A DNA stretch of 64,000 bases from Hypomesus transpacificus. Taxonomy: Eukaryota; Chordata; Actinopteri; Osmeriformes; Osmeridae. The stretch covers positions 1,338,154 to 1,402,153 of the forward strand of contig NC_061067.1 in assembly GCF_021917145.1 (NCBI RefSeq). Direction: 5' to 3'. Positions 2,698 to 64,000 of this stretch are shown piece after piece. The position numbers and the translations under genes were made by a program. The notes below the pieces were generated by a model. It searched no databases and was not told the origin of the DNA. It was given only the letters and a program-made list of their open reading frames with translations. The stretch's first letter is position 1, and every line of letters begins with the position of its first letter.

Positions 2698-2890
2698 GGA
2701 GTCAGGTGGCTGAGCGGGTAGAGCATCGGGCTAGTAATCTGAAGGTTGCCAGTTTGATTCCCCGGCCGGTGCACATGACGTTGTGTCCTTGGGCAAGGCA
2801 CTTCACCCTACTTGCCTTGGGGAGAATGTCCCTGTACTTACTGTAAGTCGCTCTGGATAAGAGCGTCTGCTAAATGACTAAATGTAAATG
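2698..2890 (+). mobile_element. tRNA-derived SINE, full-length copy
   Basis: The head resembles a tRNA with an A box (GTGGCTGAGCGGGTAGAG) and a B box-like GTTTGATTCC. The body contains GTGTCCTTGGGCAAGGCACT, and the tail has the common fish SINE end, GCTCTGGATAAGAGCGTCTGC then TAAATGACTAAATGTAAATG. The same family recurs at 7261, 25645 and 52904. It is not a functional tRNA: the acceptor arm and anticodon loop do not close. Confidence 0.85.
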
Positions 2891-7260: not shown

Positions 7261-7463
7261 TTTACATTTACATTTACATTTAGTCATTTAGCAGACGCTC
7301 TTATCCAGAGCGACTCACAGTAAGTACAGGGACATTACCCCCGAGGCAAGTAGGGTGAAGTGCCTTGCCCAAGGACACAATGTCATTTGGCACAGCCGGG
7401 AATCGAACTGGCAACCTTCTGATTACTAGCCCGATTCTCTCACCGCTCAGCCACCTGACTCCC
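7261..7463 (-). mobile_element. tRNA-derived SINE (minus orientation)
   Basis: Inverse of the copy at 2698. It begins with a (CATTTA)n tail, has GCAGACGCTCTTATCCAGAG, and ends with the tRNA-like head (GCTCAGCCACCTGACTCC on this strand). Its head end takes part in a local 65-bp tandem duplication. Confidence 0.85.
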
Positions 7464-25644: not shown

Positions 25645-25836
25645 CATTTACATTTAGTTATTTAGCAGACGCTCTTATCCAGAGCGACTTACAGTAAGTA
25701 CAGGGACATTCCCCCGAGGCAAGTAGGGTGAAGTGCCTTGCCCAAGGACACAACGTCATTTGGCTCAGCCGGGATTCGAACTGGCGACCTTCAGATTACT
25801 AGCCCGATTCCCTAACCGCTCAGCCACCTGACTCCA
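25645..25836 (-). mobile_element. tRNA-derived SINE (minus orientation)
   Basis: Same family as 2698 and 7261: tail CATTTAGTTATTTAGCAGAC at the left, tRNA-like head (CTAACCGCTCAGCCACCTGAC) at the right. Flanked on both sides by CACACA repeat, so it probably inserted into the microsatellite. Confidence 0.88.
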
Positions 25837-37789: not shown

Positions 37790-42420
<4,631 letters not shown>

Positions 42421-42724: not shown

Positions 42725-45024
42725 ATGGAGGAGCAGTCCAGTTGCCCAAACGTCAGCATCCCCTGCTACAACGAGCAGAGGGACAAGAAGAAACGCTACA
42801 CCGTGAGTAAACCGTCGCCATGGTGACAGCTGGTCAACAGGAAGTGACTGGGGCTAGCATTCCTTGGAGACAGTTTTGTGTGCAGTGTCATCGTTGCAGT
42901 GCCAAAGCATTGTTACATTCGCAGCATTAGCCGTGTGGATCTCAAACTGAACTAGATCGTGTTCTTCCAGGTATACAAAGTGATGGTCAGCGTTGGAAGA
43001 CATGAGTGGTTTGTCTTTAGACGGTATGCTGAGTTTGACAAGCTCTACAATACGGTGAGTGTGTGCCACAATGAGATACGCATGCTGAATCACCTTATTC
43101 AATATGCAGGCTAGTCTATATTTAGGCTGGACATTTATGTAAAGCAAAGTTGACATTTCCAAATTCAGATGATTCAGCTCTTGTGACTGTCCTTCTGAGT
43201 AATAAGTACATAAGTAAATGAACTGCCAGCCTACATTAAATATCAATGCTTCAAATGCTTATATCATATCTTCTCTTTTAATACAGCTGCGGAAACAGTT
43301 TCCATCATTAAACTTGAAAATCCCTGCTAAGAGAATATTCGGAGATAATTTTGATCCAGGTAAGGTATTGTGCTGGGCATGCTATATTACATCACGAGTC
43401 TCCAGTCTACTAATTTAACTAAGGTTATTTTCATTCCTTCTCTAGAGTTTATTAAGCAACGAAGAACAGGGTTACACGAGTTCATCCAGAGACTTGTCTC
43501 CCACACTCAACTCAGCAACCAGTGAGTAGCACTAATATTACAGTATGTGTTTAAGTTACTGTGTTGCTAAGAATGAAAGTATTATTTTAATCGATTGATG
43601 CTTGTTGCACGTGCCATATATCTTTATCTTCATCATTACAAGTTCAGGAGGGAAATGGATATCAGCCTTTTTCCATTTGTCATGCTTTCCCATTTTTCAC
43701 CCTGTTTTGTCATGGTGACATCTCCTGACCCATGGGTTATAAAATGGAGGAAGTAGATTCCCCTAACAACAGTGTCATTGTGTGTTTATTTAACCCTTCG
43801 ATGCCCTGGCCCTCTCTGTCACACAGCCCTGATGTCAGAGCGTTCCTGCAGATGGACAAATCACAGAACTTCTCTGATGCTTCTGAGGATGAGGATGACA
43901 AGGTTAGCCCCTGGTGATGGTCTTTAACAGACAGGCCGTTGTATGAGACCATGGCTTCATTTAAACATTCACCCCAGTTGAGATGATGGTGTTTTCTCAT
44001 TGGTTAGTTGAGATGACGTGTTTTCTGTTTGGTTAGTTGAGATGACGTGTTTTCTCATTGGTTTACAGAACAGCTCTGGCTCCAGAAATATTAACCTGGG
44101 ACCATCTGGAAATCCACAGTGCGTTCCACAAATTATTCACATATAGGAAAATATTTTTTTTATAACACTTGTAGTGAAAATGTACATGAGTCATTGATGT
44201 AAATGTAATTTACTTGTTTTGTTTTTTCCCCAGGGCGAAACCCACAGACTTTGACTTCCTGAAAGTCATAGGCAAAGGGAGCTTTGGAAAGGTATGTCAT
44301 CAGAAGAAAAAACGACATTTATAATAGTCATATGCTATGTGTCTTTAAGACACATTGTATGTTTTGTGGTTTAGTCAGTCCTTCAAAAATGAGAAACTGG
44401 CCACCACATCATCTTTTGAAACAGCTACTCTGTGTAGTAAAGGATACAGTTTTACTTCTGCATGGAACACCGAGTGGCCTTTACACATAGGAAGTGAGAG
44501 TCTCTCAGTTCCACTGGAATTTCACTGCCTCATTGTGTTGGTTACTATTGTCTCAGAGATGGAGCTTGAGGCTAGCTAACATACTTTCTCTCCCTTGTTA
44601 AGGTTCTTCTGGCTAAACGGACCCTGGACGGGAAGTATTACGCAATCAAGGTCCTGCAGAAAAGAGTCATTCTCAACAGGAGAGAGGTAGTTCTGGCTGC
44701 GATTTTATCATATCAGATCCCCTTTGGTCTTTAAAGAAGCACTGTATGTTTAGGGGGTTTACTGCACTGAAACACCTCTTGTGTTTGTTACCAGCAAAAA
44801 CACATCATGGCCGAGCGCAACGTGCTGCTGAAGAACGTGAGACACCCCTTCCTAGTCGGGCTTCATTATTCCTTTCAGACGACAGACAAGCTGTACTTTG
44901 TCTTGGATTTTGTCAATGGTGGAGAAGTGAGTAGGATCACTGTTATGAATATAGTTCCTAGTGCTGAGTCAGTGGGCCAATTGGAACCCAGGATAGTATT
45001 GGCACAGCAAGTGTGCTACACTGT

Positions 45025-45071
<47 letters not shown>

Positions 45072-48000
45072 TCTCTGTTGACCTTGGAAACACAATGAAG
45101 CCACTTAAGGCTGTGTCCATGAATGAACAACCATTATACCACGGTCACGATGAATGCCTGATTTCAGGTTTAAAATATATGGTTTAAAACATGTTTTTGA
45201 AACCATATATTGTATACTTCTAAACATTTCTACATACAGGCTGCTTATACTGATTTTCCCCAACACCAATCCCAGTGTTTGCCGGTCTGGGTCAGCTCTA
45301 TCTGGACACAGTGTGACCTCACTCACACCAATCTTTTGTGAGCTAGATTTCTGTTCCTGGTAAAGAAGTTGAGGATTTTCCTCGTTTGTGTAGATGAGTT
45401 GGTCATGATGCTGTCGTTTTTTCTCAATCAATTGTGTAACGCATAAAGAGCTATATCAAAAGGCTTTTGTGGGGTATAATGGTGGTGGCAAAGTTCACTA
45501 CTAGATCTATTTAAAACATCGCGTTGTTACCATGGTGAAAACGATGGCTCGGGGCTGGATTCCTTCTTTGTAGAATTAATGCATCCTGACCGCTTGTGCA
45601 GCATAAGCCAATGGTACTATGAACATATCAAGACTTGATTTCCTCACCTGTTTTTCTTTTATCTCCTAAGATTGTTCTGATACTACTGCTGGAATTGTGT
45701 GTTTAGTCTCTTCAGCATGCATGAATGAATTTAAATCAGGAAATGGGAGTTTGCATTTTTTAGCTGTGAGAGTTTGAAGTGTTGGCCCCTTCAACAATAT
45801 CCAGTAACTTTCACACTCTCTGTGTTCTGTTCAATCTTAGCTTTTCTTTCATCTTCAAAAAGAGCGGACTTTCACAGAACCCAGGGTGAAATTCTACATT
45901 GCTGAAATGGCCAGTGCACTGGGATACCTGCATTCACTTGACATTGTTTACAGGTAATGTGTGTAGAGGAATCCAGATTGGTGGTTGTCTGGGTTGGTGG
46001 TAGAGTTTGGATACCTGTTTTCATGTACGTTCATTAGGCATTTCTTATTTGTTGAGCGCATCTCAATTGGTTGGAAAGTCCCACTAAACATGGGATTTTT
46101 GTGACGGTCCAAGAATGTTCAAAGCTTGGTGTATAATAAACACTTTCTATTTGCAGCTTTCAAGTTAAGTTTTTAGTGCGGTCATGCTTGCTTGTGTATA
46201 ATTGTAGATTAACTGACATGTGAGTGCAATTTTCTTTACTAGACTGTGCTGCTTCATATGATGTTAGCTAAAACCTTAGTGTGTCAAATGGACTTGGGGG
46301 AATAGATCCCAATTAAATTTAGATTGAGACATGAGACAATCTTAACTCAGTAGCTCATTGTTTCACCACATTCTACTACTGACCGTGACGAACCAACTAG
46401 TTTTTAGGACAATTACATTTTCCAATTAGCAACTTTATAATGATATTATTGTTTCTTGCAGGGATTTGAAGCCAGAAAATATCCTTCTTGACTTTGAAGT
46501 AAGTCTGACCAATTCATAAAATGTACTTTTAAGTTCTAAATTTGGTTTCCTAGAACTGTCCACAAATTATCCAGACCTGATTCTTAGGTTCCATAAACTT
46601 CCTACTTTTCCAATATCCCATAGACTGTGCAATCCTAACCAAAGAGACTGCCAGTTATTGAGTTATGTTTTACACATGCGTTTCCTGTCTGGCTTTATTG
46701 AGAAAGTGAGGAAATTGTGAGTTTACTGAATCGGGGTAGTGGGCACTACTAGGCATTCCAGAGCAACAATAGATTCCTCAGTCCTGATATAGGATAATGA
46801 GCTGCTTGTGTGCAGTGCACACCGTCTAAACATGTCTCTGTCTCCGCTCTTTAAAGGGACACATTGTGTTGACAGACTTTGGTCTGTGCAAGGAGGGCAT
46901 CTCCCAAGCCGAGACCACATCCACCTTCTGCGGGACACCCGAGGTAATGTGTGCGCAGCAGTTAAGCATTACGTCGTTCTGTTCCCCTGCACCCATGTGG
47001 TGAATCCTGAGAGATATCCTGTGTCCAGCTCCTAATCAGTAACCACGGGAGGATTTGCAGTGTGAAAGTGTCTAAATGAGGTGGTTAATCATTTGGCAAG
47101 TCTAGGCTCAGGGTCAGGTTGTCAAGGCGAGTGTCAAGTACTGTAGTCCTTCTAGTCACTGTCTTCTTGAAGTTTGAAATGAACTTGTTTGCTAAAGGTT
47201 TACCCCGTGGTTTTGTGTGTTCAGTATCTGGCTCCAGAGGTACTGAGGAAGCAGCCGTATGATAACACCGTGGACTGGTGGTGTTTGGGCTCGGTGCTGT
47301 ATGAGATGCTTTTTGGCCTGGTGAGTTTATCATTTGCTGTACAGCAGTTGCCAGATTGTTATTGATCTTTTTACAGGATAAAGCATACAGCGCCTACAAG
47401 TGTCTATTTACGGACGATAATTAGAGACAGACTTCTCTTTTCTCGTGCGTTATATTGAGAGCGGAAGAGCTAACTTACTTTCCTCTCTGTCACAGCCGCC
47501 ATTCTATAGCAGAGATACACACGAGATGTACGATAACATCCTCCACAAGCCTCTGTTGATGCGCCCTGGGGCTTCAAACACCGCTTGGTCCCTGCTACAG
47601 GCCCTGCTAGAGAAGGATGGTGCCAAGAGACTGGGCTCCAGAGATGACTTTGTAAGTGGCTGTTTGTTTTTTTGGGTATCAGTGAGTGTTACTGGGTCCA
47701 GAACAGTCCTATATCTCTTTCCAGGTAGTACAATACAGGATAAAATTGTTATTTTGAGCTTTTGACTGTTGTTTTAGCGACAACATGCAGCATGAGTATT
47801 CATATCACTGTAGAAACTGTTCAGACACCATTCTTTTTACATAAGCACAGCAGAACAGCTCGTCAACGTTTAGACTCCCTCTGGTGGACAAACGGTGTTT
47901 CTGTTTGGTTCAAGTCACATGAAGTCTCTTCTTCGCAAGCAGTAAACCCCTCTTTAAACTCACTGTACCTAAATATGTTCATGTTGAGCAAACTATATTT

Positions 48001-48454
48001 TCATTTTTGCAGATTGAGATCAAAGCGCATGACTTCTTTTTTTCCATCAACTGGGACGACCTGGAACAGAGGAAGATTCCACCTCCCTTCACACCCAACG
48101 TGGTAAATATATGTTGGGGATTCTGGTTGTTAAAGCTGGTACACACGTTTTATGCATCGTGTTGTATTTCACAATATCATACAAACCCAAACCCCTGGTA
48201 TATAAACACCGTCATGTAATTGGAATGTTTGATATGGCGTTGCTATGGTTGTCATGTCATGAATTTGTTTCCTTGTCTTGCAGAATTCTCCTTATGACAT
48301 TACAAACTTTGATCCAGAGTTCACGGATGAAACTGTTCCAAACTCAGTTTGCCACTCTACTGACTATTCCATAGTCAATGCCAGCGTCATGGAGGCCGAC
48401 GATGCATTCCTGGGATTCTCTTATGCCCCGCCTTCAGATGACTCATTCTTGTAA
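42725..48454 (+). CDS. sgk3: Serine/threonine-protein kinase Sgk3, 16 coding exons
   Basis: Exons: 42725-42802, 42971-43054, 43287-43359, 43446-43521, 43827-43902, 44069-44118, 44234-44291, 44603-44686, 44795-44926, 45841-45953, 46462-46498, 46857-46943, 47225-47320, 47496-47651, 48013-48102, 48284-48454. All phases close: 1461 nt, 486 aa (human 496). SGK3 is an endosomal AGC kinase that acts downstream of PI3K. An N-terminal PX domain (about 10-120, '[13 protein letters not shown]', '[13 protein letters not shown]') binds PI3P. The kinase domain has the Gly loop GKGSFGKV (159-166), Lys181, catalytic RDLKPEN (275-281), DFG 294-296, PDK1-site Thr310 in TFCGTPE, and the hydrophobic-motif Ser476 in GFSYAP. 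The PX domain distinguishes it from SGK1 and SGK2. All catalytic residues are present. AATAAA sites lie at 48509 and 49238. Confidence 0.97.
43977..44064. repeat. Three ~29-bp repeats ending at sgk3 exon 6 acceptor
   Basis: Copies at 43977, 44007 and 44036 of GTTGAGATGACGTGTTTTCT+CATTGGTTA. The last copy runs straight into the acceptor TTTACAG of exon 44069-44118. Confidence 0.75.
45029..45067. repeat. (CT)n microsatellite in sgk3 intron
   Basis: Pure CT array of about 19 units in the intron after exon 44795-44926. Confidence 0.9.
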
Positions 48455-49243
48455 AACACACGGTTCCAGCGATCTATCACCTTGCCTTATCCTGTCTTGA
48501 TTCGTTTGAATAAAAGGGAAGAATTCATCATGTGGATGAACCCATTATGAGAAGCCAAAGCAAGAATTTAAGATGAGTTCGCATTTGATGGGTGATTTTG
48601 GGTGTCCAGTAACCTTTATTTTTACCTTATTCTATTTATATAACAGATTCTATTTTTAAGAAATGTGTGCCATCATTCGTGATATGCATTTTGGTTTCCG
48701 CTCCCTTGTTTATCCTGGAAAAACTGACCCAAAATGTATTTATTGATAACAGAAAAATGAGCTAATGCTTATAAAAGAACATTCCTCTTTGCAGTAGACA
48801 AGGTTTACAAAGTTGTGTACTTCAAAAGTTGAACTAAAAACACTGAAACGTTATTATTTTCCTCATTTGCCCAGAATTATAATATGTGGACTAGTTCTGT
48901 TTTCCCACTACGATCATTGATTCAACTTTCAGTGGTGAATTAGTGTCTTTTGCTGGGGAGTTGAAATTGGAAATACTTGAGGTCACTTACAATCGCCATA
49001 TGTCGACAGGTCATTTTAATGCGTCTATACTTTGTGATACAGATTTTCTGTATGGTTATGTCAGAAAAAAATGTTTGCATATTTGTTAGTTTTCCTGCAT
49101 GTATATTTGCTTATTCTCTCTCGTGCCTTAATTAACACAAATATAGTTTTAACAGAAAAACTTAAAATGTATCTTTTACAGACTCCACTCAACTGTATAA
49201 TGCCCCGGCTCAACATTGTATCAGTACTGTACTGTAAAATAAA
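48455..49243 (+). other. sgk3: sgk3 3' UTR
   Basis: Non-coding, AT-rich, ending near the second AATAAA (49238-49243). Only about 265 bases separate this signal from the mcmdc2 ATG. Confidence 0.55.
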
Positions 49244-49440
49244 AGCAAAAATATAAATTCGTTGAACTTTGAACAAACCCATGTGTGTTTTTATACCTTA
49301 TAATAATTACAATCATTAATCGACGTTGCCGGCTATGAGGCAACATACAGTAATATCATACTTTGGAGATAGAAAAGGGGATTCTGTGTCGCACAAACCA
49401 ACTTTATTCTTGAGGCAGCTGGCACGAACGCATTCCAATG

Positions 49441-49476
49441 TTTGGCGCGCGGTCAAGTGTTACAAAGTTGGCGCGC
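49441..49476 (+). promoter_or_regulatory. mcmdc2: Paired E2F-like sites upstream of mcmdc2
   Basis: TTTGGCGCGC at 49441-49450 and GTTGGCGCGC at 49467-49476, 33-68 bases before the mcmdc2 ATG. Both fit the E2F core (TTTSSCGC / GGCGCG). MCM-family and many germline genes carry such sites; use here is inferred. Confidence 0.5.
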
Positions 49477-49508
49477 TTGTATGGTTCCTTTAAATTAACG
49501 TTCTCAAA

Positions 49509-52500
49509 ATGGACGATGTTTTATCGCTAAAAGAATCCGTATTATATTATTTAGACAGAAGTGGTGGTCTTCTTAAACTCGCCGAAGACTGCAAGACTTT
49601 CAATGGTAAGTTTTTAAAGTGATGAAACTTCCCAAGTGAAAGTGGTCGTAAGTAGGTTAGAACATGCCTAAGGAGTTGAGGATAGGCCTACACCCAAGAA
49701 CGTTAAAAGTAGCCTACAGGGATGACAAGTATGAATTTCTTTCATTTTGACAACACTAGTTGCTAACACTTTTGTGGAGGCTTAAACTACCTTGGATAGT
49801 GACTGATTCTATCTCCAGACCCCCAGCAGAGTGAGGCAGTGTATAGGTTTTGCATTAGTGTGAATCCTTCTGACCTGGTAGAGCTGGACCCCGTGTTGGG
49901 CGACTGTATTCTACACAGCCCGCTGAAAGCGACCGCCCTCTTTCAGTCTGTGAGTCCAAATAATCATCAGGTCTCCAGTTCCAGTTTCCCAAGGTGTCTG
50001 AATGAAATAAGATAATATGTTTGTTTTGTTATGCCTATATCAGGTTTGTTTTCTATCAATAAAGACCCTTTCCCTGATAGAGAAGATACACACAGAGAAT
50101 CAGGTATGAATATCACTAGTGGTTTGTTCATGTGTCCTATTACTCACCCTTAGGGAAATATCGTTTGTTTTAGACTGTAATCTCTGGTCTCCTTGAGGTT
50201 AATGTGATCCTGAAGCTGACTCACCTGCCTCCATTTCCTGAATACTGTCTGGACCTCTGTGAGTTCCCCCGTGGGTATGGCCCCATGAGGCCCGTTGCCA
50301 TGGAGGGCCTCGTCATTGCCATGACGAGGGTCACCAAGTACACTCAGGGGGCCAGATTCCTCTGTACGGAGGACGGCTGCCCCTGCTCAACAGGTACTGT
50401 TACCACGTCAACAGCAAGGTTAACTTTCCCTCCTCTCTGTTAGTTTTGCCTTCCCTTCGTTTTCAAAGCATCCAGTGTGCTGGTTCGTTTTGGCTTTTAA
50501 CAAGATTCTAGAATCCCCTACACCCAGTCTCCTCACTCAGTAGAGTGAGGAGACTCCTCACTAGTAGAGTTATAGTGATATATAGATTCTGATCATAGAA
50601 CTACAAGATCTAGTTCTATGATCAGAACTCCATGTAGTTCTATGATGTGTCCTCCAGGGTTCCATCATATCAGAGTACACGCCCCCGGGGCCACTGAGTC
50701 TGCCACAGTGAGGAGAGACTTCACCTGCCCTCTCTGTTCCTCTCCCCTCATAGAGGACGTCAAATTCAGAGTGCTTGGAGGTGAGTGAAGCCTGCCTGGG
50801 CCGTCGCTGACGACAACACGTTGCTCGGCTCAGCTAAGACCACTTATGATCACAGAGGATGTATGTAAGTTAGATCTATTGAACAATACAGTTAAAGGGT
50901 CCTTTTGACACCAACAAGTGGTATGTGCGTTTGTGTGTCTTTGTGTGTGTGTGTGTGTGTGTGTGTGTTGTAACTTCACTGAAACAGACAAGCAGCTGGT
51001 GGAGCTGATTCATGTCAGAGCTCTCGCTGTGCTGAGTGTTCATCCACACAGCTCCCTCAGATACCAGTCTGTCAGCCTGTTTCTCAGAGGTAAGCTCACA
51101 TCTGTGATTTGCAAATACAATTATAACTTTAACATTCAAGCTCTAAGAGGAAACAGGCCCCAGAAACCGTTTAACCAAAAAGCTTGAACTGGTATACGGA
51201 ACTGTAGTTCAAATGGGATCTTTTGGAAATAATACTGTCTTACACACTTCACATAGTTACTTGGGATAATTTAATAAAGTAGGCTAAGGCCCTTAATACC
51301 AATACCCCAATGTGATCTATGTTTAGAAAATATCCAATCATATAGGTATTCAAAGTTTGACATTTTCTCCTTACTTTTGTAATGAAACATTTTGGAGAAC
51401 CAAGTCAATGGGGGAGAGTTCAAATAAACAGAGTTTCTAGTAGTCTGCCATGCACTGTTCCCCCAGGTGCGATATTAGCTGTTCCTGTCCCCTTCAATAA
51501 CATTGTTCACCCATTACCCCCTGAGACACCAGTGATTCTCAGTGCCAGCATTAGCATATTCTGTTGACCCAGTCTTACAGAGGAATTCCATACACTGGGC
51601 TCTGGTTACTAAACATATATGTTAATATGTGTAAGGAACACTCATTAGCTGGTCACACGGTACACTAACACTAGGAGCTTTGTTCTGCAGGTCTTGCTCT
51701 GTGTTGCTCTTGGCCGTGCCCTGTAGGTGGCATGCATGTTTTCTTCAGTAATCAGCAGACAGGAGAGAACAACCTTTCTTAAGTGTTATTGTTTTATTTC
51801 CCGAGCGTTTAGATGAACTGTGTAACTCGATGAGGATTGGCCGGCTGTACAGGGTTCTGGGCATACCTGCGCATGTGCACCAGTGGCCTAAAGTCACTTG
51901 GAGCGTGGAAGCCAACAGTGTTCAACCATGGAAGCCAGCGTGTAAGGACGCAATCAATCCTACCTCTGATCTAACTTGCCTATCAGGCTTTTTTTACAGC
52001 AGTTTTCTGGAATCACACTGAACAGGATGTTCAACTGTACACTATGTACACAATCTTTTGTTCTTTCTGAGTCTAGCTTGAATACAGACTGTGTGTCACT
52101 CCTACATGGGGAAGAGTTAATACATCACCAGATTATCAACACAAAGGCCTACTCTCCACTTCCACAGATTCACATCAAATCAGCACTAACTTCCAGGCGC
52201 TGCTGACGGCCACAGCCTGCTCTCCCTGGAGGTTCTCGGCCGTTGTTGCTAACTCGTTTGGGTCGGCCGTGGTTCCCCCAGGCCTGTACAGCACCCTAAA
52301 GCTGGGCCTGCTCCTCAGCTTGGTCCAGACCAGGTCAGAGGAACCAGACTCCCTGCAGTGTCTGGACCTGTTGTCCCTGACCACAGACACACTCATTATA
52401 GAAAGGTACATCGTCAGCTTCACAATGGAGCATTAGTATGGATTGTTTGGGTTATTTAAAGTCCTCACTAAATCCTAGTGAACACAGTTTATCTGAGTAC

Positions 52501-55376
52501 ACCCACATGGTCTGGGTTATGTGTGTGTGTGTTAGGTTGATGACCTACAGCCTGGGCCTGGCTGGACGTGGCGTCAGACACCAGGCCACGGGGGAGATGT
52601 TTGCATCCCTGTCCCGAGACGAGCACGGGGCAGGCACCGCCAACGTCCATGCTGGCTCCGCCCTGCTGGCCACAGGGGGAATCTGCATGCTGGGAGACCT
52701 GGGGGGCTACAGGAGAGACAAGATGGACGCCGTTCAGTCAGGTGAGCAGTAAGGATCCTAGTCTTGTTATCGGATAACCACCTACTTATTTTAGCTGCCT
52801 GACCTCACTGATATCCATACTAGAATAATATGACACAGAATTGTTTGTGTGTCGGCCGTAGCGCGGAGTTCTCAGTGTTTATATAAGCTGCTTCGCTCTA
52901 CTTACATTTAGTCATTTAGCAGATGCTCTTATCCAGAACAGTAAGTACAGGGACATTCCCCCCGAGGCAAGTAGGACACAACGTCATTTAGCACGGCCAG
53001 GAATCAAACCGGCAACCTTCTAATTAATAGCCCGATTCCCTAACCGCTCAGCCACCTGACATTCTCCCTCAGCCCTGGAGAGCCGGGTGGTGTCTGTGTT
53101 TGTACCGGGGAAGAAGTACGGAGAGGACGCCCCCCAGACACTCTCATTCCCGCTTCAGTGCAGCTTCTGGGCCCTGGCCGACTCCACGGCCCCCTCCAGG
53201 AAGCCCACCAGGGGGGACAGTGCTGTGCTGTTGGGGACAGTGGTGGGTTCATATACAGCAGCTTCTGGAACTATTCAGACTCACTGTTGTCACGTGGTTC
53301 AGACCTTATGTTAATGGACTGGACTGTTTTCATTTTGTGCACATAGGCGGCATAATGACAACCTATAAAAATATTTTATGAACGGAAATATAGTATTAAT
53401 ATCCAGTTTTATCTCTCTGGAGAAAACACCTCATGCCTCATAATGTCAGCTGCTGTGTCTGTTAACCACGAGGGCAGGAGATGGGCCCAGTCCCCATGCA
53501 GCTAGCGGAGGCCTTTGGCCTGGTGATCCAGTGTAGGGAGGCAGGGGGGGAACAAGCCCTGCTGGCCCAGACGGTGCACACTCTGAGGCAGGCGGTGCAG
53601 CCTGGAGAGCCCCTCTACCCTTCCTGCATGCAGTTCACCACACAGGACTACCAAGAGGTACACGCCGCAAACTTACATTTACATTTATGCATTTAGCAGA
53701 CGCTTTTTATCCAAAGCGACTTCCAAGAGAGAGGTTTACAAAAGAGCACAGGTCACTGATCATAACAACGAGATAGCCCCAAACATTGTGGATAGCCAAA
53801 CATGAAGCCTACATTGTGAAACCAAATAAGTCCCAAAGGGAAGAGCAATAAGAGCATGTAGTTGGACAAGTTAAAATTAAACAGCAAGAACCTCAAAAGT
53901 GCAATAGTGTACCTGTGGAAAAAGCAGGCAACTATAATATATTTCACAGCGAGTACAATAATTTTAAGATAATTACAACAAACCAACCAGAGCAACAAGT
54001 CTCTCAATAAGAATCATTGTGATCCTGGGGGGAAAATCCCGAGCTTTCAAACTTGTTTACATCATTTGGGAAATGCTTATACGGACATGAGAATGTTTGT
54101 CGTAGCCATGGCGATGATTCCCCTTCCTCCCCCAGCTCCTGGCCCATGCGCAGACCTTGCAGGTGGAGATGAGCCCTGGAGCTGAGAAGATGATTCATGG
54201 GTACTACATGGCCAGCCGCAGGGTCCGCTCAGACACTGCCCACGGGGCCAAGGTGTCTGTGGCCTCCATGAAACTCCTGTAAGAGCTCCAGCACACTACC
54301 TTGAAACCACTCATCCAAACGGATGTCATGCAACTGGAGAAGTAATATTATTTTGACCACAAGGTGGCGCACACTTCCTGATTTATCACTGTAACTGCAA
54401 ACCTTACCCCAGAAGACAATTAGTCATGTCGTTTGTCCAAATGTTTAAGAAATCCTTTCAGTGTAGTGTCAAATGTGGTGTCACAATGAACTGTTAAAAT
54501 AAACATTAGGCCACAACATTTAAAAGGCAAATTGACTCTATACTACGGTGTAACAGAGACAGATGAAGGAGCTGTGCCAGTCCTATATACAGTCAACTCT
54601 GCCTCTCAATTAAATGTGCTTTTAAAATACAACTCTTATGTTCCTTACTGCAATAGAAATGTTACAAAGTAGACTTTTTCTTACTAATTTAACATATTAG
54701 ATGTTAACATGGGAGACACATTTGGAGGACCCACCAGTAAAATAATTACAATTCAGTGCCTTTACTTTTCATCCAGTGCCTTCACTGTCCATTCTCAATA
54801 ATAACCTACATTTCTTCCCCAGGATCTCTCTGGCTGAGGCCCACAGTAAACTGTCTCTGAGAAGCAGCGTGTTGGAGGAGGATGCTGTGATCGCTGTCCT
54901 GCTCTGTGAAAACGCCATCATCCTTCGGCATGGTAGTTAATATAGTGAATCTATAAAACATAAGACACTGGTAGATTAGACTTTGGATCTCATGGTTTTG
55001 CATCATTTTACCCTTTGTAACCACTTCAAAATGTTCAAACATGTTCTGGGGTTCATACCTTTACTGAGTGATAAGTGTTCGATGGCAAGAGTAGTTAACT
55101 AGTCAACAATTGTACCACCACCACTACCAATCATACTGTACCACTGCAAAGGGCACACAAGGTCATTTGGCTTATAGGCCAGTACCGTAACCTTGGAGGT
55201 CTCCCACAGGGACCTCAGCGCTCGTTATCCCACCTGACGCAGCCTTTCCCTGTGACCTGGGTGATCTGGAGGCCCTGCAGCAGAGAGACGCAGCCTTGCA
55301 GCAGCTCCACCAGGACATCCTGCACTTCATCTACGCCCACGCCCCCGGGGCCGACAGCTACATCACAGAGGAGTAG
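49509..55376 (+). CDS. mcmdc2: Minichromosome maintenance domain-containing protein 2, 14 exons
   Basis: Exons: 49509-49605, 49819-49949, 50044-50103, 50174-50393, 50658-50780, 50988-51089, 51813-51941, 52168-52405, 52536-52741, 53073-53242, 53478-53657, 54136-54278, 54823-54932, 55210-55376. Phases close: 2076 nt, 691 aa (human 681). MCMDC2 is an atypical MCM-like protein needed for meiotic recombination and homolog pairing in mouse. Recognisable blocks: 'YYLDRSGGLLKLAEDC' at the N-terminus, 'LKLTHLPPFPEYCLDLCEFP', 'MEGLVIAMTRVTKYTQGARF', a Cys-rich zinc-finger-like part (LCTEDGCPC then CPLCSS), 'AGSALLATGGICMLGDLGGY' and 'VFVPGKKYGED' of the degenerate ATPase region, 'MIHGYYMASRRVRS', and a C-terminal helical stretch ending ITEE. 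Two SINE pieces sit in introns 9 and 11. No AATAAA lies between the stop and the snhg6 3' end. Confidence 0.96.
50529..50626. repeat. Two perfect inverted repeats in mcmdc2 intron 4
   Basis: Arms CTCCTCACTC (50529-50538) and GAGTGAGGAG (50543-50552) with a 4-base loop; and TCTGATCATAGAACTA (50588-50603) with TAGTTCTATGATCAGA (50611-50626), 16-bp arms around a 7-base loop. A third related GTAGTTCTATGAT follows. Confidence 0.85.
52904..53061 (-). mobile_element. tRNA-derived SINE, diverged, in mcmdc2 intron 9
   Basis: Minus-orientation copy with internal deletions relative to 2698 and 25645: it lacks the GAGCGACTTA and GGGTGAAGTGCCTTGCCCAA portions. Its tRNA-like head ends about 12 bases before the acceptor of exon 53073-53242. 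Confidence 0.85.
53669..53745 (-). mobile_element. SINE tail fragment in mcmdc2 intron 11
   Basis: ACATTTACATTTATGCATTT followed by AGCAGACGCTTTTTATCCAAAG and CGACTTCCAAGAGAGAGG: the 3' end of a related but distinct fish SINE subfamily, just after exon 53478-53657. No head is visible. Confidence 0.65.
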
Positions 55377-55806
55377 CAGGCTCCTGTAGGTGTGCCGTCA
55401 TACGACAGCAGGACCACGGCAGGCAGGTTCAAACCCCAGGCTGGACAGGCCAAGCTCAATGCACGATAGAAAACCATTTTCAACACAAATCTAGAGTAAA
55501 GTAGACAATGTAGTTGTGGCTTTAGCAAGTCTTTTATTTACTCATACAAGTTCATTATAGTGGTTGTGTGAGAAACATAATTGTACATTAGTGTAATTGA
55601 CCAGCAAATATAAAGGGAGAAGAAATTAGCAGATTGTAACTTCCAGGTCGTTCCTTCAAGCTGCCAGTAACATCGATAGGGGTGACCAGGGGGATTGCCA
55701 TATGGATAGCTTCACTTCAGGCTAGATTGTCCTGTGTGGAATAAAAGGGGGGGGGAAATTACCTTTGGAATTCTAATGCAAAAAGAATGTACATGAAGCG
55801 GTCAAT

Positions 55807-55883
55807 TGGAATCTCAGGAAGTCACATTCTCAGCACTTGCAGTCTGATGGGTAAACGGCAAAAATGATCTCATCATTGTTCCA
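55807..55883 (-). ncRNA. snord87: SNORD87-like box C/D snoRNA, copy A
   Basis: Box C ATGATGA (55870-55876), box D CTGA (55814-55817), terminal stem TGGAA/TTCCA (5 bp). The antisense element TTTTTGCCGTTTACCC precedes a CAGA D'-like box. GCCGTTTACCC is the hallmark of SNORD87 and is complementary to the conserved 28S rRNA stretch GGGUAAACGGC, so it should guide 2'-O-methylation of a G there. Lies 75 bases upstream of the last-exon acceptor. Confidence 0.88.
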
Positions 55884-56081
55884 GAACAGTGGACACATGC
55901 TGTGGTCATAATGATCACACTTAAGTGTACATCTGTAGGAATGACCTAACGAAAAATATGCACTCACCATGGTTAAAGTTTCCTTAGTCAGTTCCAACCT
56001 TGGAGAGAGAAAAAAATAATAATACATTGAACATAGTTTCAGGATAATACAACCACAGACCTTTGCCAGTAGTTTAGCAGT

Positions 56082-56159
56082 TAGTTCAGGTAGTCACAAT
56101 CTCAGCACCCCAATTTTTGGTCAGATGGGTAAACGGCAAATGTGAAATCATCATAACTC
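56082..56159 (-). ncRNA. snord87: SNORD87-like box C/D snoRNA, copy B
   Basis: Box C ATGATGA (56148-56154), box D CTGA (56086-56089), short AGTT/AACT terminal stem. Antisense ATTTGCCGTTTACCCAT directly followed by a perfect D' box CTGA, so the fifth base upstream pairs with the third G of GGGUAAAC in 28S rRNA. Lies 83 bases upstream of the exon 55968-55998 acceptor. Confidence 0.87.
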
Positions 56160-56368
56160 AAGGAACACTAGTCTTACATCACCAGAGTTAATAATACATC
56201 AGTCACCAAACTTCAGGTGCACTCACCAGACTGGATGTCGCATCAGAACCTCCGTGATGAAGACCTCCGTGATGCAACCACTACTCGCGTCTAGAAGAAA
56301 GTACACTTGGTAACTATCTTTGGCTACTTAAGAGATCGCGATGTTAGTGCCTGGTTGCCATGACGCTG

Positions 56369-56446
56369 GTCATTCAGGTAGTCACAGTCTCAACACCTTG
56401 TTTTAATCAGACGGGTAAACGGCAAATGTGAGATCATCATTGATCC
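56369..56446 (-). ncRNA. snord87: SNORD87-like box C/D snoRNA, copy C
   Basis: Box C ATGATGA (56434-56440), box D CTGA (56374-56377), a weak terminal pairing (GATCA/TGACC), antisense ATTTGCCGTTTACCCGT followed by D' CTGA. The flank is shared with copy B (GACTGTGACTACCTGA). Lies about 78 bases from the exon 56227-56290 acceptor. Confidence 0.85.
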
Positions 56447-56636
56447 AGCAGTCAGTAGGAACAGCACTAACAGACGACATGACTGGTTGGGGTGTACTGA
56501 CCTCGTAGATACAGCACCACCCATCCCTGCTGGACTCACAAGACCTGTGAAGGGGAAGAAAATTATTCAACATGAAAAAGGCCAGTGTAATCAGTAGGGT
56601 CTGGCTGAGAACACTAGATAGTCAGTATCTACAGTT

Positions 56637-56716
56637 GGAGATTCAGTTAGTCACAGTCTCAGCATCCCATAATAGTCTGATGGGTAAACGGCTTTAACGT
56701 GTATCATCACTACTCC
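56637..56716 (-). ncRNA. snord87: SNORD87-like box C/D snoRNA, copy D (most diverged)
   Basis: Box C GTGATGA (56704-56710), box D CTGA (56643-56646), terminal stem GGAG/CTCC. The antisense core GCCGTTTACCC is kept, but the base-pairing extension changes from TTT to AAA before GCC. The D'-like box is CAGA. Lies 92 bases from the exon 56502-56544 acceptor. Confidence 0.8.
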
Positions 56717-56801
56717 ACTATTGTCAATGACTGGCAGAGCACTGTGCAATTACTCACTTGGTACAGAAGATGTGTACATCTTCACCTTCTCATTTTCAGT
56801 C

Positions 56802-56937
56802 CATCAAACCTGCAGAGGGGAAGGTTTCAGTTATTCATCAAACCTGCAGAGGGGAAGGTTTCAGTTATTCATCAAACCTGCAGAGGGGAAGGTTTCAGTT
56901 ATTCATCAAACCTGCAGAGGGGAAGGTTTCAGTTATT
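56802..56937 (-). repeat. Four 34-bp repeats, each carrying a 3' splice site
   Basis: Perfect copies at 56802, 56836, 56870 and 56904. On the minus strand each contains CCTTCCCCTCTGCAG|GTTTG, i.e. polypyrimidine tract, AG and the first exon bases. The copy nearest the exon bounds exon 56758-56809. Confidence 0.9.
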
Positions 56938-58109
56938 CACAAGACCAAATAAGAGGCTTTGCTCACAATTCTAATTTAATACTAATTTCCCTGAATATGT
57001 TGGAATTCATTCACCATGAACACTTTTTGGTTTTTCAGATCATACCTTGATAGAACCACATCAGGAATCCTTGTTGAGATCACTTTTAGCCATTGCAATC
57101 AGAAGATAAATCACATAAAAGCAAAGTTAGGAATAATTTTCACGGTACATGTTCAACCCTTCACAAAGTGATAGATGCTTATAAGTGCTTCGCGTCAGCA
57201 GCCTGTATCCAACTGATTGACCATTGAAGCATGGATCTATTGATTTCCATGTCGCATGAATAAGCTGTACTGAAGGGTTCACCAATGTGTCCACTGAGGA
57301 TGACTGATTAAGTTGAGGTCAGCAGAGGGCACATGCGACACAGCTTGGAGGCACTGTCGACACTGCTGCAGTCTCTTCAACCAGGTTCAACATCAGGTCA
57401 CGACCTATACCATGGCCTTTACTCTTGAGGGGCTCGACGCCCTGGTTTGCTCATGTAAGTAATTGGGAAGACAATTCCCTAACCACTATCACCTTTGATA
57501 ACTAGTTAGCCCTGATCTGAACACAGCAATGATTCTAGCAAGCTCGGTAAAAGGACAATGTAATTTATCATCGGTAAGTAGTGACAAGAATCTGCCAAAC
57601 ATGATTTATGACATTACGGGGGGGACGTTTAGCAAAACATAGATTAAACGAGTTCTGGTTTTATCATATTGAATGGCAATTGCATTCCTATCATTTGCGT
57701 AAATACACGTTGTTGTAATTGATTAATTTAGCCCTTTAGCTGCATCGAAAACTGACTACAAATAATGCAGCATTCGATTCGGCTATCAGGACATACCACG
57801 TGTTACGTGCTAGCTAGCTAATTAGCTCGTTGGCTGCATTTCCTGGCCTTATAAGTTCTTGGACAACAGAGGTACTAATTAACATATGGCAAACAAAGGC
57901 TGAAAGATTAGCTACGTACCATTCAAACTACAAGTAAAACACAAACATGATACCAGTTAGCGAGCTGGTTTAGTGTTAAATCGTAACGCTATTGTAGCTA
58001 TTTACCAAAGGCTTTCGTTTTCACTCATCTTTTCAAGAACGTTGCAAATGTGCAAAAAAGTATCTATAATACGCCACAAAGGCCTACACAGCACACTTAT
58101 TATATGTTA

Positions 58110-58230
58110 ACCTACCATTTGTAAATGAGAACTCTGCATTATGGTTAGAAAAGTAATCGTGATCAGAGAGGACGCGCATGTCTTCACCCTTCAACAGCAT
58201 GGACAGAGAGAAGGAAAAGATGTAGCGTTC
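58110..58230 (-). promoter_or_regulatory. snhg6: 5'TOP start region of snhg6
   Basis: CATCTTTTCCTTCTCTCTG on the minus strand at about 58205-58222 is an oligopyrimidine start typical of translation-machinery and snoRNA host genes. No TATA box lies at the usual distance. Confidence 0.45.
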
Positions 58231-59473
58231 CTGATTTTGTTGTCATGCGCACTGCTCTCGGACGTGCTTGACTATTGCCTGATCTAAAATTGCAACATGG
58301 GCTGTCTACTCGATCTGTAAAATAAATGTTTTCCCAAAATATTTGGATGGAATCATTTTTGAATACATTTTAAACTATTTTTTTTACTGTATAGGACCTT
58401 TCCTTTTACGAGCAATTTTTTTTTTTCCATCAAGAAAAGATTGGCAGATTGAGAATACATTTATATTTGAGATATTATACAATATGTTAAAGGCCTAGAC
58501 TAAAGTTGGTCTACTGTCAAGGCTAGTTGTAGCCTATGTAGCCTAATTTAGTAGTTAATTAAACTTTTTGTTGTTGTTGAGTTTTAGAGTTATATTGTCA
58601 ACGTAGACAGCCTAGGCCTAAATGACCAATGTCAGAATTTCAAAGGGTCAAGCAAACGTTATACTAGTCTGATTTTCTTTCAATTGAAAGCTTTTATTTA
58701 ACAATAAAGCATCTGGTGGTATAATGCTTTTAGGATAAGCCCCTCTATTTAATAGTTTTATTTCAAATCCAACATGACCATTCCACAACCTATTTATGCA
58801 AATGAAGACCACTAAACCTATTTCCTTAGCGTTGCTAATTTGGCGTCTATATAATATATTTAAGTTAAATAGATGCTTAGTAAATCTATTCTGCAATGAG
58901 AACATATTCAGGCTATAGATGTAGGCTACGTCTCCACGTGTTCATGTACAACAGAAGTCTTTATTTCCACAAACACGTCAACAACCATCCACATAGAGAA
59001 CAGGAGATGAAGAGACTACCATTGTTGAAATTCTGACAGACCACTTCACATGACAGATGTTAAGTTATTCACACATGCATTTAGTGCAAATGTTTTAACA
59101 AAAAAAGTGCATAGCCATCAACTCAAGCATGACGGGTCATTACCCAACGAATTTCTAAAAGTAATACCTCGAACAAGTATAGGCTATAGAACTACACAAT
59201 GCAGAGAAGAAATGTACCGGCCAAAATGCAGAGAAACACAACAATCATTTTATAATTATATCTACATAATCACATAATATATTAATTTACAACGTGTTCT
59301 AGAGTTGGGAAATGCATTAACCACAGTTTACAGAATGTGGCCATCGTTCTATTGAAAAGTAATGGTAGGCTACTTTAATTATTGGACAGATCTCCAGTTG
59401 CTTTATTACCAGAGGCTATGCGGAAAAGCCCATTCATAAAAAAGCCTTAGATGAGATGAGATTTTTCGAATAT

Positions 59474-60414
59474 CTATGAGTGAGAGGTCGACGATGATGC
59501 TCCTTGATTCTCCGATTGATTTGAATTGTTCAAGAACTGACCGGTTGCGCCGATGTATAATCTGGATCTCATTGGCCACTTCTGTAAAAACAAAACGGGG
59601 AAAATATAAATTAATGCGGCTAAATCGTGCACATTAGGGCTAGGCCTAGCCTACTTGTTAAAAATGTAGTTTTTTTGGCCTATTTATTGTGACGTGTTGG
59701 CCGCCTATAGCATCTGCAAAAATGAGATGAATCAACATTAGCATTTTCTAATCAGTTTGATGTGTTTGTAGGTAATTCATATGTGAAGGAAAACACTTTT
59801 CAAATCTATTGAAATCACATAGAATATACAATTCGTTGCAATCATCACTATTTAATAATATTATGCTTAGGCTAATTAAGACAATTCATCGGCCTAAGTC
59901 AATAGCCAAACGGTAGAGGTATAGGCCTATATTGCCTATGGATGTTTAATGTCAGTTTCGTGGCATGTTGGCTATCAGGTCATGTAAGGCTACTTACTTT
60001 GACAGGATGCAGGTATCCATCACCTTTCAGGGACTTTAATGCTTCTGTTTGTTTTGTGCTCTCTCCCTCCTCCATGCCCTCTTCTTGCAGTGTTCGGGTG
60101 AGATGGGCAATGTACGTGGTAGCCAAAATCAACACATCGAGTTTAGATAGTTTGGTATCCGGTGGTACCGATGGAAGCGTCCGCTGTAGTTCCAGGAAGG
60201 CATGTCTCAGGGTTTGTACTCTACTCCTTTCCCGGGCAGCATTGGCTGCTGCCGGGCGGCCTTTCCCACCACCAAGCCCACCGGCTTGGACCACCCTGGA
60301 ACGTAAGGCCTCCGGACGACTGGGACTGGAGCTGGGGCTCGATGTGGGACTGTCATCCATATCTGTCACTGGGACATTTCCACTATCCATGCGGCTCGTC
60401 TGTCTTCCAACCAT
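59474..60414 (-). CDS. tcf24: Transcription factor 24 (bHLH), two coding exons
   Basis: Exons 59998-60414 and 59474-59581 (minus strand); donor GTAAGT, acceptor TTTTTACAG, phase 0, giving 174 aa (human about 167). A class II bHLH factor that would bind E-boxes as a heterodimer with E-proteins; little is known of its biology. The bHLH spans about residues 56-108: basic region NAARERSRV, helix 1 '[19 protein letters not shown]', helix 2 '[19 protein letters not shown]'. After the domain come '[11 protein letters not shown]' and, across the intron, '[16 protein letters not shown]', which mark TCF24 specifically. The Ser/Pro-rich N-terminus is not conserved; Met1 and Met9 are both possible starts. 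A 5' non-coding exon is suggested by an acceptor at about 60431 and a donor AAG|GTGAGT at about 60920. AATAAA at 59402-59407. Confidence 0.95.
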
Positions 60415-60919
60415 TGAGAGTACTTACAAACCTGAATGGTAACATGGCTTGTTTGTTAATGTCTTTCACTTATTTAGTCTATACTTTCCCAAACCTAATA
60501 GCCTACTGACAACATTTGACTGTTTTTCGTAGGATGCCTAAATTAAAATGTACGCTAAAAATCGCTAGGATATAGGCCGAAAGGCCCTATTCATTTTCAT
60601 CATGATTGTTTGTAAAACATATTTTTTACATAAAATATACAAAATATTCGAACTAGCTTGTAATTGGTAAGGAAAGATCCCTCACCTTCACATTTAGGCT
60701 ACAAAGCCTTAATTAAAGTCGTCAACTCCAAGCAGTCCTTTCTTAAATGAACATAATGCTAAAAATAAAATATAATTCAAGTTTACAATTATGCCTTTAA
60801 ACATTTGAGATTGTTAAGCCCATAGTTTCATAACATGCATGGCTCGCATTGCTGGTGTATAAAATGTCCACATAACTGATTTGATCAAACATATCCAAAC
60901 TATCAAAAAATTACTCACC

Positions 60920-61130
60920 TTAAAATGTCCTTAAAAGCGACGTCTTGAAAAACGTCATTAAGCCAATGCAATTGGCTCAGTGCAAAATCTGCTGTTTCCC
61001 CGCAGTGCAGAGTAGTTCTACTCGTCGGTCCAGCTCCAACTACAGAATCCTTATAAAGGCACAACTGTCGACAGAAGGTGCGCAAAGGTCCCTGTCCGCG
61101 CGTGGAGCACTCACCTGAGTGCGTCAAGTC
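60920..61130 (-). other. tcf24: Possible tcf24 5' non-coding exon
   Basis: Minus-strand donor TTTTAAG|GTGAGT near 60920, matched by an acceptor (TTACCATTCAG) about 16 bases upstream of the coding ATG. The exon's upstream limit is not determined. Confidence 0.4.
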
Positions 61131-61139
61131 TCAGGAGCC

Positions 61140-62470
61140 TCTTAATTTATTGGACACACAAAGCGTAGACAAGTCTTTCACTCCGGAGTAATTAATCACA
61201 AGCCCAAAAGACTCACTGGCAGTGGGAGAGGCTCCGCTCTTTTCCCCCTCGAAACTTATTTCTCTCTGAGGGAAGCTGAGAGACTTGTTTTCAACACCAG
61301 AGGCAGTCGGTTTTTTTTTCTTCTCCACATTCTGAGTTTTGTCCTGGGTATACATAGAGTATAGACCCAGTTTCATGAAGTAGCCTAGTTGAATTTAATC
61401 TTTGGTCGAAACGTATTGTAGACCATTGAAAAGCACGCTTAAGAGCGAGCTTAAGTCGTGTGTTCAAAAGACCATGACGATAAAATGACAACAGTAAGGT
61501 GATATGCAAAACATTTGACTAATTACCCGACTGTCTTGAGTTGCAAGTCGCAAAACAGTCTAATTTACTAATTCATTTTAATTTAGGCTACTGAGGAACA
61601 GCTAATAAATAAACTCTAAACACTGCAATCAACAGGCAGGCATGAGGAAATTCTTGTGAGACCTGCATATAAATCACTCTGATTTCCAGGGTCCACAAAC
61701 GGAGATGTCTGTAAATTAATGAATGGAATTATTCATAACATGTATATCCTTAGACTGTTTTTAATAAACATTGTTTTTGTACGGATTGAGTAACAGTATT
61801 GCTCCGGGCCACTCATTCTAAGACGAAGCAAAGAGGGTTAAGTAAGCTTTATTCCATAATTACCCCACATCTTTCAGGGGTTACACACCCACAGTTTAAA
61901 GACCCGTTCAAACGTGCGCAAGAAATTTAAGAGGGTGAAGTAAATATATTGTGAACTGCATCCCGTAGGCTATACAGTGAATTATATTTATTTGTAGGCA
62001 GTCTTTTATACGCTTCATGGATACATATGCACACTGCAACCTATTTACAAATCCCATGATCAATATAAAATAAAATCTGAGTCAAATGGAACAAATCAAT
62101 TCAACTTTCAGAAATTGGGACAATGATTTTGGTTGATTAAAGCATTAAAACCGTTGAAAGTTTGAAGAATAAGTTAAATTGGGGAAACAATATTGTGCAG
62201 ATCTGGTAATTAATCAAACAAATACATGTGATAATGTTAAGGCTTCAAATGTAAAATATTATGGGCATATGATTTCTCCAAAGGTGATCAATTATAAAAT
62301 GTTTTAAATATGGGGGGGAACAACACTACCTCTGATTTAAAATCAATTGACCAAATATCTCAGAAAATGTCAATCATCTGGCCTATGCTAAATCAGTTTT
62401 AAGTCTTAAATAAGTACACTTCAGTATGTATTTATTTTTACACGAGAGATAGACAATGACATAAGACATA
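61140..62470. other. Intergenic upstream of tcf24, no gene recognised
   Basis: AT-rich; no supported exon or repeat family. Confidence 0.5.
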
Positions 62471-62803
62471 AGAGTTAAATAATGCAAATTATGTTTATTT
62501 GCACTGTAAGAAATACCATATCAAACACCACACTGGTCCATTCCAAATCAGGCAGTTAGGAAAGACTAAACACAAACAAACGCACACAGGGAGAAGTACG
62601 TGAAAGGAATCTATAATTTCAGACACTGTGAGGAAACACTGAGACAAAGAGCTACATTTTTTTGCAGAGTTTCAAGGTAGCAGGTCAGATTCTGATGTGC
62701 AGAGGCACCAGTGACAGTCTCCATGCCATGTGTGTCAAGTCCATGGGTCAGACATGAGGAAGTGGTCTGTGTGTATGTGAGTGTGTTTAGTAAAGCTGGC
62801 GAG

Positions 62804-62873
62804 TCAAGTGGCTGCAGAGTCGGCCATGTCGCAGAGTAGCCCTGTGCTCACAGGGACCGTTATGTTCTGCGCG
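62804..62873 (-). CDS. Candidate terminal coding exon of an unknown minus-strand gene
   Basis: On the minus strand a strong polypyrimidine tract (CTTCTTCTTCTTCTTCTTTG) and GTAG precede 70 bases that encode AQNITVPVSTGLLCDMADSA and two more residues, then TGA, if entered in phase 2. A minus-strand AATAAA at 62494-62499 would end a 3' UTR of about 310 bases. By human synteny the next minus-strand gene would be PPP1R42, but I do not recognise these residues. The tract could equally be a chance microsatellite. Confidence 0.25.
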
Positions 62874-63310
62874 CTACCAAAGAAGAAGAAGAAGAAGGTT
62901 ATCAGTGAGCTTCAAAGAGCGGGTAACGCCTAATAATCTTTTTCCTTACATAATACATACAGTCTTACAAGTATTTATTTTTCACATTTGGTAAGGATGT
63001 TATTGTGTAAATATTAAGTATGAAACTTGTGTGGAACATTTTCCATAAAATCTTGTCATTGTAATACAGTTACAGTTTATTTACATAAACCCAGGCCCTC
63101 ATAGAGGAGAAAATCTGTTTATTTAAGTAAGAGAATTTGACCATCTAGGCCTTTTGTCCAACACAAACGATAAGAAAGGAAACAAAGAATATAATTTGAA
63201 TCTTGTCAAATAAATATATATTGTCTGATCTTCAAAATGAATCTGTCTCCTTTTTGAGGTTTGAAAGCAAATACCGACTGTAAACACAATATCAAATATT
63301 GTACTGGTGG

Positions 63311-63810
63311 NNNNNNNNNNNNNNNNNNNNNNNNNNNNNNNNNNNNNNNNNNNNNNNNNNNNNNNNNNNNNNNNNNNNNNNNNNNNNNNNNNNNNNNNNN
63401 NNNNNNNNNNNNNNNNNNNNNNNNNNNNNNNNNNNNNNNNNNNNNNNNNNNNNNNNNNNNNNNNNNNNNNNNNNNNNNNNNNNNNNNNNNNNNNNNNNNN
63501 NNNNNNNNNNNNNNNNNNNNNNNNNNNNNNNNNNNNNNNNNNNNNNNNNNNNNNNNNNNNNNNNNNNNNNNNNNNNNNNNNNNNNNNNNNNNNNNNNNNN
63601 NNNNNNNNNNNNNNNNNNNNNNNNNNNNNNNNNNNNNNNNNNNNNNNNNNNNNNNNNNNNNNNNNNNNNNNNNNNNNNNNNNNNNNNNNNNNNNNNNNNN
63701 NNNNNNNNNNNNNNNNNNNNNNNNNNNNNNNNNNNNNNNNNNNNNNNNNNNNNNNNNNNNNNNNNNNNNNNNNNNNNNNNNNNNNNNNNNNNNNNNNNNN
63801 NNNNNNNNNN
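63311..63810. other. Assembly gap (500 N)
   Basis: Exactly 500 undetermined bases, a round size suggesting a scaffold gap of unknown true length. Reading frames crossing it are meaningless. Confidence 0.99.
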
Positions 63811-64000
63811 CAGCAGTAAACAGGCTCAGTCAATCTTACAGGTCTGAAGACATTCAGAGTTTTCTTTGGTATCATTGAATTCTGCACAACACTGCTTATA
63901 CATGCGCCAGTAGCTTTGGCCAAGTATGTTACAGATCAGTAAATATTCCAAGTAACAAAACTGACTAAAATACTGTAGTTGCTGTGATAAAATGAGGCAT

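Follow-up and report, generated by a model that had tools for sequence, protein, structure and literature searches.

Four SNORD87-like box C/D snoRNAs in successive predicted introns of an snhg6-like host gene in a fish

RESULTS

Four box C/D units on the minus strand

The locus described here is very probably a fish orthologue of SNHG6 in which four successive introns each carry one SNORD87 paralogue, the four being redundant at a single 28S rRNA site and derived from an old intragenic duplication. The features are collected in Table 1, where the snoRNAs are called copies D, C, B and A in transcript order; the window is the whole stretch of 64,000 nucleotides that was analysed. The window contains four exact matches to the antisense 11-mer GCCGTTTACCC, each of them on the minus strand, and allowing one mismatch adds none. 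The chance expectation is a mean of 0.42, and none of 100 dinucleotide-preserving shuffles reached this number when as much as one mismatch was allowed. The full pattern of box C, 11-mer, D′ box and D box matches copies A, B, C and D only, with no match on the plus strand. These counts confirm the four minus-strand box C/D units proposed in an earlier, sequence-only reading of this DNA. The spacing of about 270–290 nt given there also agrees with our measurements: box C starts at 56710, 56440, 56154 and 55876 (D, C, B and A), i.e. at intervals of 270, 286 and 278 nt, the positions reported earlier being the 3′ ends of the units.

Every copy retains an intact box C (RTGATGA), 11-nt guide and box D, while the D′ box is CTGA in B and C and CAGA in A and D. 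The longest invariant runs in an alignment of the four copies (88 columns) are box C, the 11-mer and a 3′ block that includes box D. Terminal stems of ~4–5 pairs are present in A, C and D, two or three bases away from the boxes; the stem of copy B is weak. Searched against the window with E values up to 10, a sequence model made from the four copies, which are thus its own training rows, found only A–D.

Table 1. Features of the snoRNA host gene and its neighbours (window coordinates)
Feature	Position	Strand	Remarks
Kinase exons, SGK3-like gene	45835..48425	plus	Pfam Pkinase 1.6e-16, Pkinase_C 1.1e-08
Last exon, predicted	55513..55731	minus	AATAAA at 55533-55538; 3′ end approximate
Intron with copy A, predicted	55732..55967	minus	box D to 3′ splice site 81 nt
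snoRNA copy A	55814-55876	minus	63 nt box C to box D; most 3′ copy of the transcript; D′ box CAGA
Exon 5, predicted	55968..55998	minus	splice motifs; 31 nt
Intron with copy B, predicted	55999..56226	minus	box D to 3′ splice site 86 nt
snoRNA copy B	56086-56154	minus	69 nt box C to box D; D′ box CTGA
Exon 4, predicted	56227..56290	minus	splice motifs; 64 nt
Intron with copy C, predicted	56291..56501	minus	box D to 3′ splice site 82 nt
snoRNA copy C	56374-56440	minus	67 nt box C to box D; D′ box CTGA
Exon 3, predicted	56502..56544	minus	splice motifs; 43 nt
Intron with copy D, predicted	56545..56757	minus	box D to 3′ splice site 97 nt
snoRNA copy D	56643-56710	minus	68 nt box C to box D; most 5′ copy of the transcript; D′ box CAGA; TTT extension missing from guide
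Exon 2, predicted	56758..56809	minus	upstream, a 34-bp unit in four identical copies, with a CAG acceptor at the end of each
Exon 1, predicted	58116..58222	minus	pyrimidine-rich 5′TOP-like start (CATCTTTTCCTTCTCTCT); start predicted from sequence
bHLH gene, TCF24-like	59980..60414	minus	Pfam HLH 6.5e-13; translation
Shared block before box D	55813-55837, 56085-56109, 56373-56397, 56642-56666	minus	repeat finder

The host gene and its neighbours

Donor and acceptor motifs put each copy in a separate predicted short intron, and small exons between neighbouring snoRNAs, as noted earlier, are borne out by splice motifs that predict exons of 43, 64 and 31 nt. The 81–97 nt between box D and the 3′ splice site are close to the usual spacing of intronic box C/D snoRNAs. 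The pyrimidine-rich start and these splice motifs would suit a spliced 5′TOP non-coding transcript such as that of SNHG6, also known as U87HG. The host would be transcribed as a spliced 5′TOP-type snoRNA host gene, and each intron would be spliced out, debranched and cut back to its box C/D snoRNA, ~72–80 nt being the approximate size that each product would have once flanking stem bases are added to the units. Ahead of exon 2, perfect 34-bp tandem units (56802-56939, minus strand; 4.1 copies with 100% matches) all include a pyrimidine tract and CAG; they provide four identical candidate 3′ splice sites, and the resulting exon 2 starts would differ by 34 nt.

The host gene looks like the fish version of SNHG6/U87HG, and the snhg6 identity given by the earlier reading is supported by the neighbouring genes: an SGK-type kinase lies on one side and a TCF24-like bHLH gene on the other, with RRS1 further off (2.9e-60). 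The best solved relative of one kinase exon is SGK1 (5.8e-16); from its C-terminal tail, we take the kinase to be probably SGK3 and not SGK1. The bHLH gene resembles TCF24. The human gene order is RRS1, SGK3, MCMDC2, SNHG6, TCF24. MCMDC2 gave no Pfam match in the six frames of 44002-64000, and the window yielded no COPS5, another human neighbour (a single tblastn row, E 0.66); both results count against the identification.

Elsewhere in the window, an open frame at 41431-42402 (minus) has a Cornifin (SPRR) Pfam match (1.6e-12) and is perhaps a proline-rich or low-complexity stretch. Three UnaL2 LINE 3′ elements score above the Rfam cut-off, at 2830-2883 (plus), 7278-7331 (minus) and 25652-25705 (minus).

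A common 28S target for the D′ guides

Pairing was assessed by the fifth-base rule, with human rRNA sequences as targets in place of fish 28S. The guide GCCGUUUACCC sits two bases before D′ in all four copies, and its fifth base pairs with G3723 of the human 28S. All four D′ guides pair at one 28S site, GCGGGUAAACGGC (core GGGUAAACGGC), with the third G at the guided position, the fifth base from D′. The pairing score is highest for C (36.0), followed by A (35.0), B (32.5) and D (29). The guide of B, the only one of the four that was shuffled, reached at most 30.0 over 60 shuffles, with a median of 23.0 and a 95% level of 29.5. Copy D falls just below the 95% level of B's shuffles, yet has 11 unbroken pairs. 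Retention of the 28S-complementary core in all four copies, as claimed earlier, thus holds against the human 28S. A placement of the copy D guide on 18S GGUAGUCGCC at human Um354 was tried and rejected; the stretch starts at 373 in the human 18S sequence used, and the scores of 17.5–20.5 are below the shuffle medians.

According to PMC3349704, 28S G-3723 is a methylated base whose modification can be guided by SNORD87, and we counted the agreement of the pairing register with this published target towards SNORD87 identity. The element upstream of box D′ would pair with 28S GGGUAAACGGC, and fibrillarin would 2′-O-methylate the third G (human G3723). For this site the four copies would be redundant.

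SNORD87 identity and the Rfam thresholds

Guide, boxes and 28S pairing all support the SNORD87-like identity first suggested from the sequence. The covariance check proposed for it was ambiguous: copies A, C and D matched the SNORD87 model, but all under its gathering score, and B was unlisted at E up to 1. With Rfam searched at E up to 1, copy A matched SNORD87 (RF00439) with 35.6 bits (E 0.00024; gathering score 50), copy C matched sn2343 with 31.9 bits and SNORD87 with 30.0 bits, and copy B matched sn2343 (RF01172) with 35.1 bits and had no SNORD87 row. Copy D had the lowest SNORD87 score among the three copies listed (22.9 bits, E 0.63), and also matched the archaeal-type sR18 model (E 0.14) under that model's cut-off. 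No copy reaches the curated cut-off of either model (50 for SNORD87, 60 for sn2343), and a whole-window Rfam scan at gathering thresholds listed none of copies A–D.

We name A–D SNORD87 paralogues because of their guide and host gene; the Rfam cut-off is not the ground. With SNORD87 (HBII-276, RF00439) the fish copies have in common the guide beside D′, the 28S target G, the boxes, the intronic site and the host neighbours. They differ in number, human SNORD87 being single, in scoring below the curated cut-off, and from the Rfam SNORD87 consensus in the sequence before box D. The model sn2343, the best Rfam row for B and C, has the same guide; we take it to be a plant snoRNA and a functional analogue, not an orthologue, of the fish copies. 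The four units exemplify snoRNA paralogues that lie below the reach of Rfam's cut-off.

When the RF00439 search was extended to the genome, 55 of 129892 candidates were scored and five had E values of 10 or less; two of these were copies A and C, with B and D unlisted. The other three (24.1–25.9 bits) were rejected, there being no GCCGTTTACC in their loci. At E 10 this search is unspecific, a control having matched in 12 of 14 prokaryote genomes, none above the cut-off.

DISCUSSION

Do all four copies work as SNORD87?

An alternative to redundancy is that only some of the copies are working SNORD87, with D, and perhaps A, decaying or specialised paralogues. We consider this unlikely. The low SNORD87 score of copy D would fit, as would the loss of TTT before GCC in its guide and the CAGA that it has in common with A; however, no copy is altered in box C, its 11-nt guide or box D, A has the top SNORD87 score despite its CAGA, and imperfect D′ boxes are frequent (PMC3349704). 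The sequence-only reading had singled out copy D as diverging in both guide extension and D′ box. The missing extension is indeed peculiar to D, but the changed D′ box is not, since A has CAGA too.

A second guide before box D?

A 25-nt block before box D, around GTGCTGAGAnTGTGACTnnCTGA, was reported by the repeat finder as a four-copy family, the other three copies being 84, 92 and 88% identical to the reference. If the copies were double guides, this GTGCTGAGAnTGTGACT block, which has small changes among the four, would direct a second modification or another pairing. That the block is kept in four copies while no two inter-snoRNA stretches clearly resemble each other speaks for such a role, but shared descent or gene conversion may account for the likeness. 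The target search points the other way as well. Against the human 18S, 28S core, 5.8S, U1, U2, U4, U5 and U6, the best scores were 24.5 for D, 22.0 for C, 22.0 for B and 21.5 for A, under the respective 95% levels of 26.5, 26.0, 27.5 and 30.0 (60 shuffles per guide; medians 22, 22, 24 and 23.5), so that no second target among these human rRNAs and U RNAs exceeded its 95% shuffle level. The chicken table in PMC2653536 gives one guide only. Double guides are therefore distinctly improbable, and we give just as little credence to the related idea that fish SNORD87 paralogues, unlike the Rfam consensus, have a second conserved functional element ahead of box D that pairs with pre-rRNA spacers, fish-specific rRNA positions or another RNA.

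A chance clustering of the guide 11-mer and boxes, or their origin from an unrelated repeat, can virtually be dismissed, given that no shuffle reached four matches and that a DNA search of the 437-Mb genome with copy B gave B and C only among the best candidates scored (A and D were missed), and hence no sign of a close dispersed repeat.

How the copies arose

Redundant paralogues from an old intragenic duplication are thus our preferred reading, and the route of duplication is where we depart most from the sequence-only reading, which had proposed tandem duplication of a whole exon–intron–snoRNA module. The five inter-snoRNA stretches were aligned locally in 10 pairs, and of the 200 shuffles run for each pair, 10 to 168 reached the observed score; none of the 10 pairs was clearly alike, the best being matched by 10 of 200 shuffles. 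The repeat finder gave no family linking the exons. With no exon or flank homology visible outside the snoRNAs, duplication of the module is not supported. Because the inter-snoRNA stretches are not clearly alike and no repeat family joins the exons, either the duplications would be old or the snoRNAs alone would have moved. In PMC2653536, intragenic duplication with divergence is named as possibly the major force for new chicken snoRNAs. Selection for dosage was put forward by the sequence-only reading as a possibility for copies other than D.

Copy number in other vertebrates

The claim that this fish has more copies than the single human gene is true but was already in print: according to PMC3349704, zebrafish has four SNORD87 genes, as does Xenopus, whereas chicken has two and human one. 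The unusual copy number is therefore not new. With zebrafish and Xenopus the likeness is one of copy number (PMC3349704). The chicken family can be compared further. GGgCD46, whose human counterpart is HBII-276, has, like the fish family, one copy in each successive intron of a single host (introns 1, 2 and 3 of the host of EST BU308261) and an 11-nt 5′ guide, here for 28S G-3233 in that paper's numbering; unlike the fish, it has three copies (PMC2653536). The two papers thus differ on the chicken count, three (PMC2653536) versus two (PMC3349704). A term search of the main texts of PMC8797249 and PMC12309372 found no mention of SNORD87.

The present locus adds one more fish with a four-copy SNORD87 family and leaves the picture of the mechanism unchanged. 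It fits the published trend towards fewer box C/D copies in placental mammals, a trend that is contested with reference to SNORD115/116 (both in PMC3349704).

Ribosomal RNA sequences in the assemblies

Viral contigs were scanned for eukaryotic rRNA and none was found. An 18S query against the fish genome returned only one inserted fragment of ~285 nt. This 18S rRNA fragment, on contig C7 at ~7658610-7658890 (excerpt 3611-3891), is 92% identical to the human 18S over 285 aligned columns and is inserted between apparent exons of another gene.
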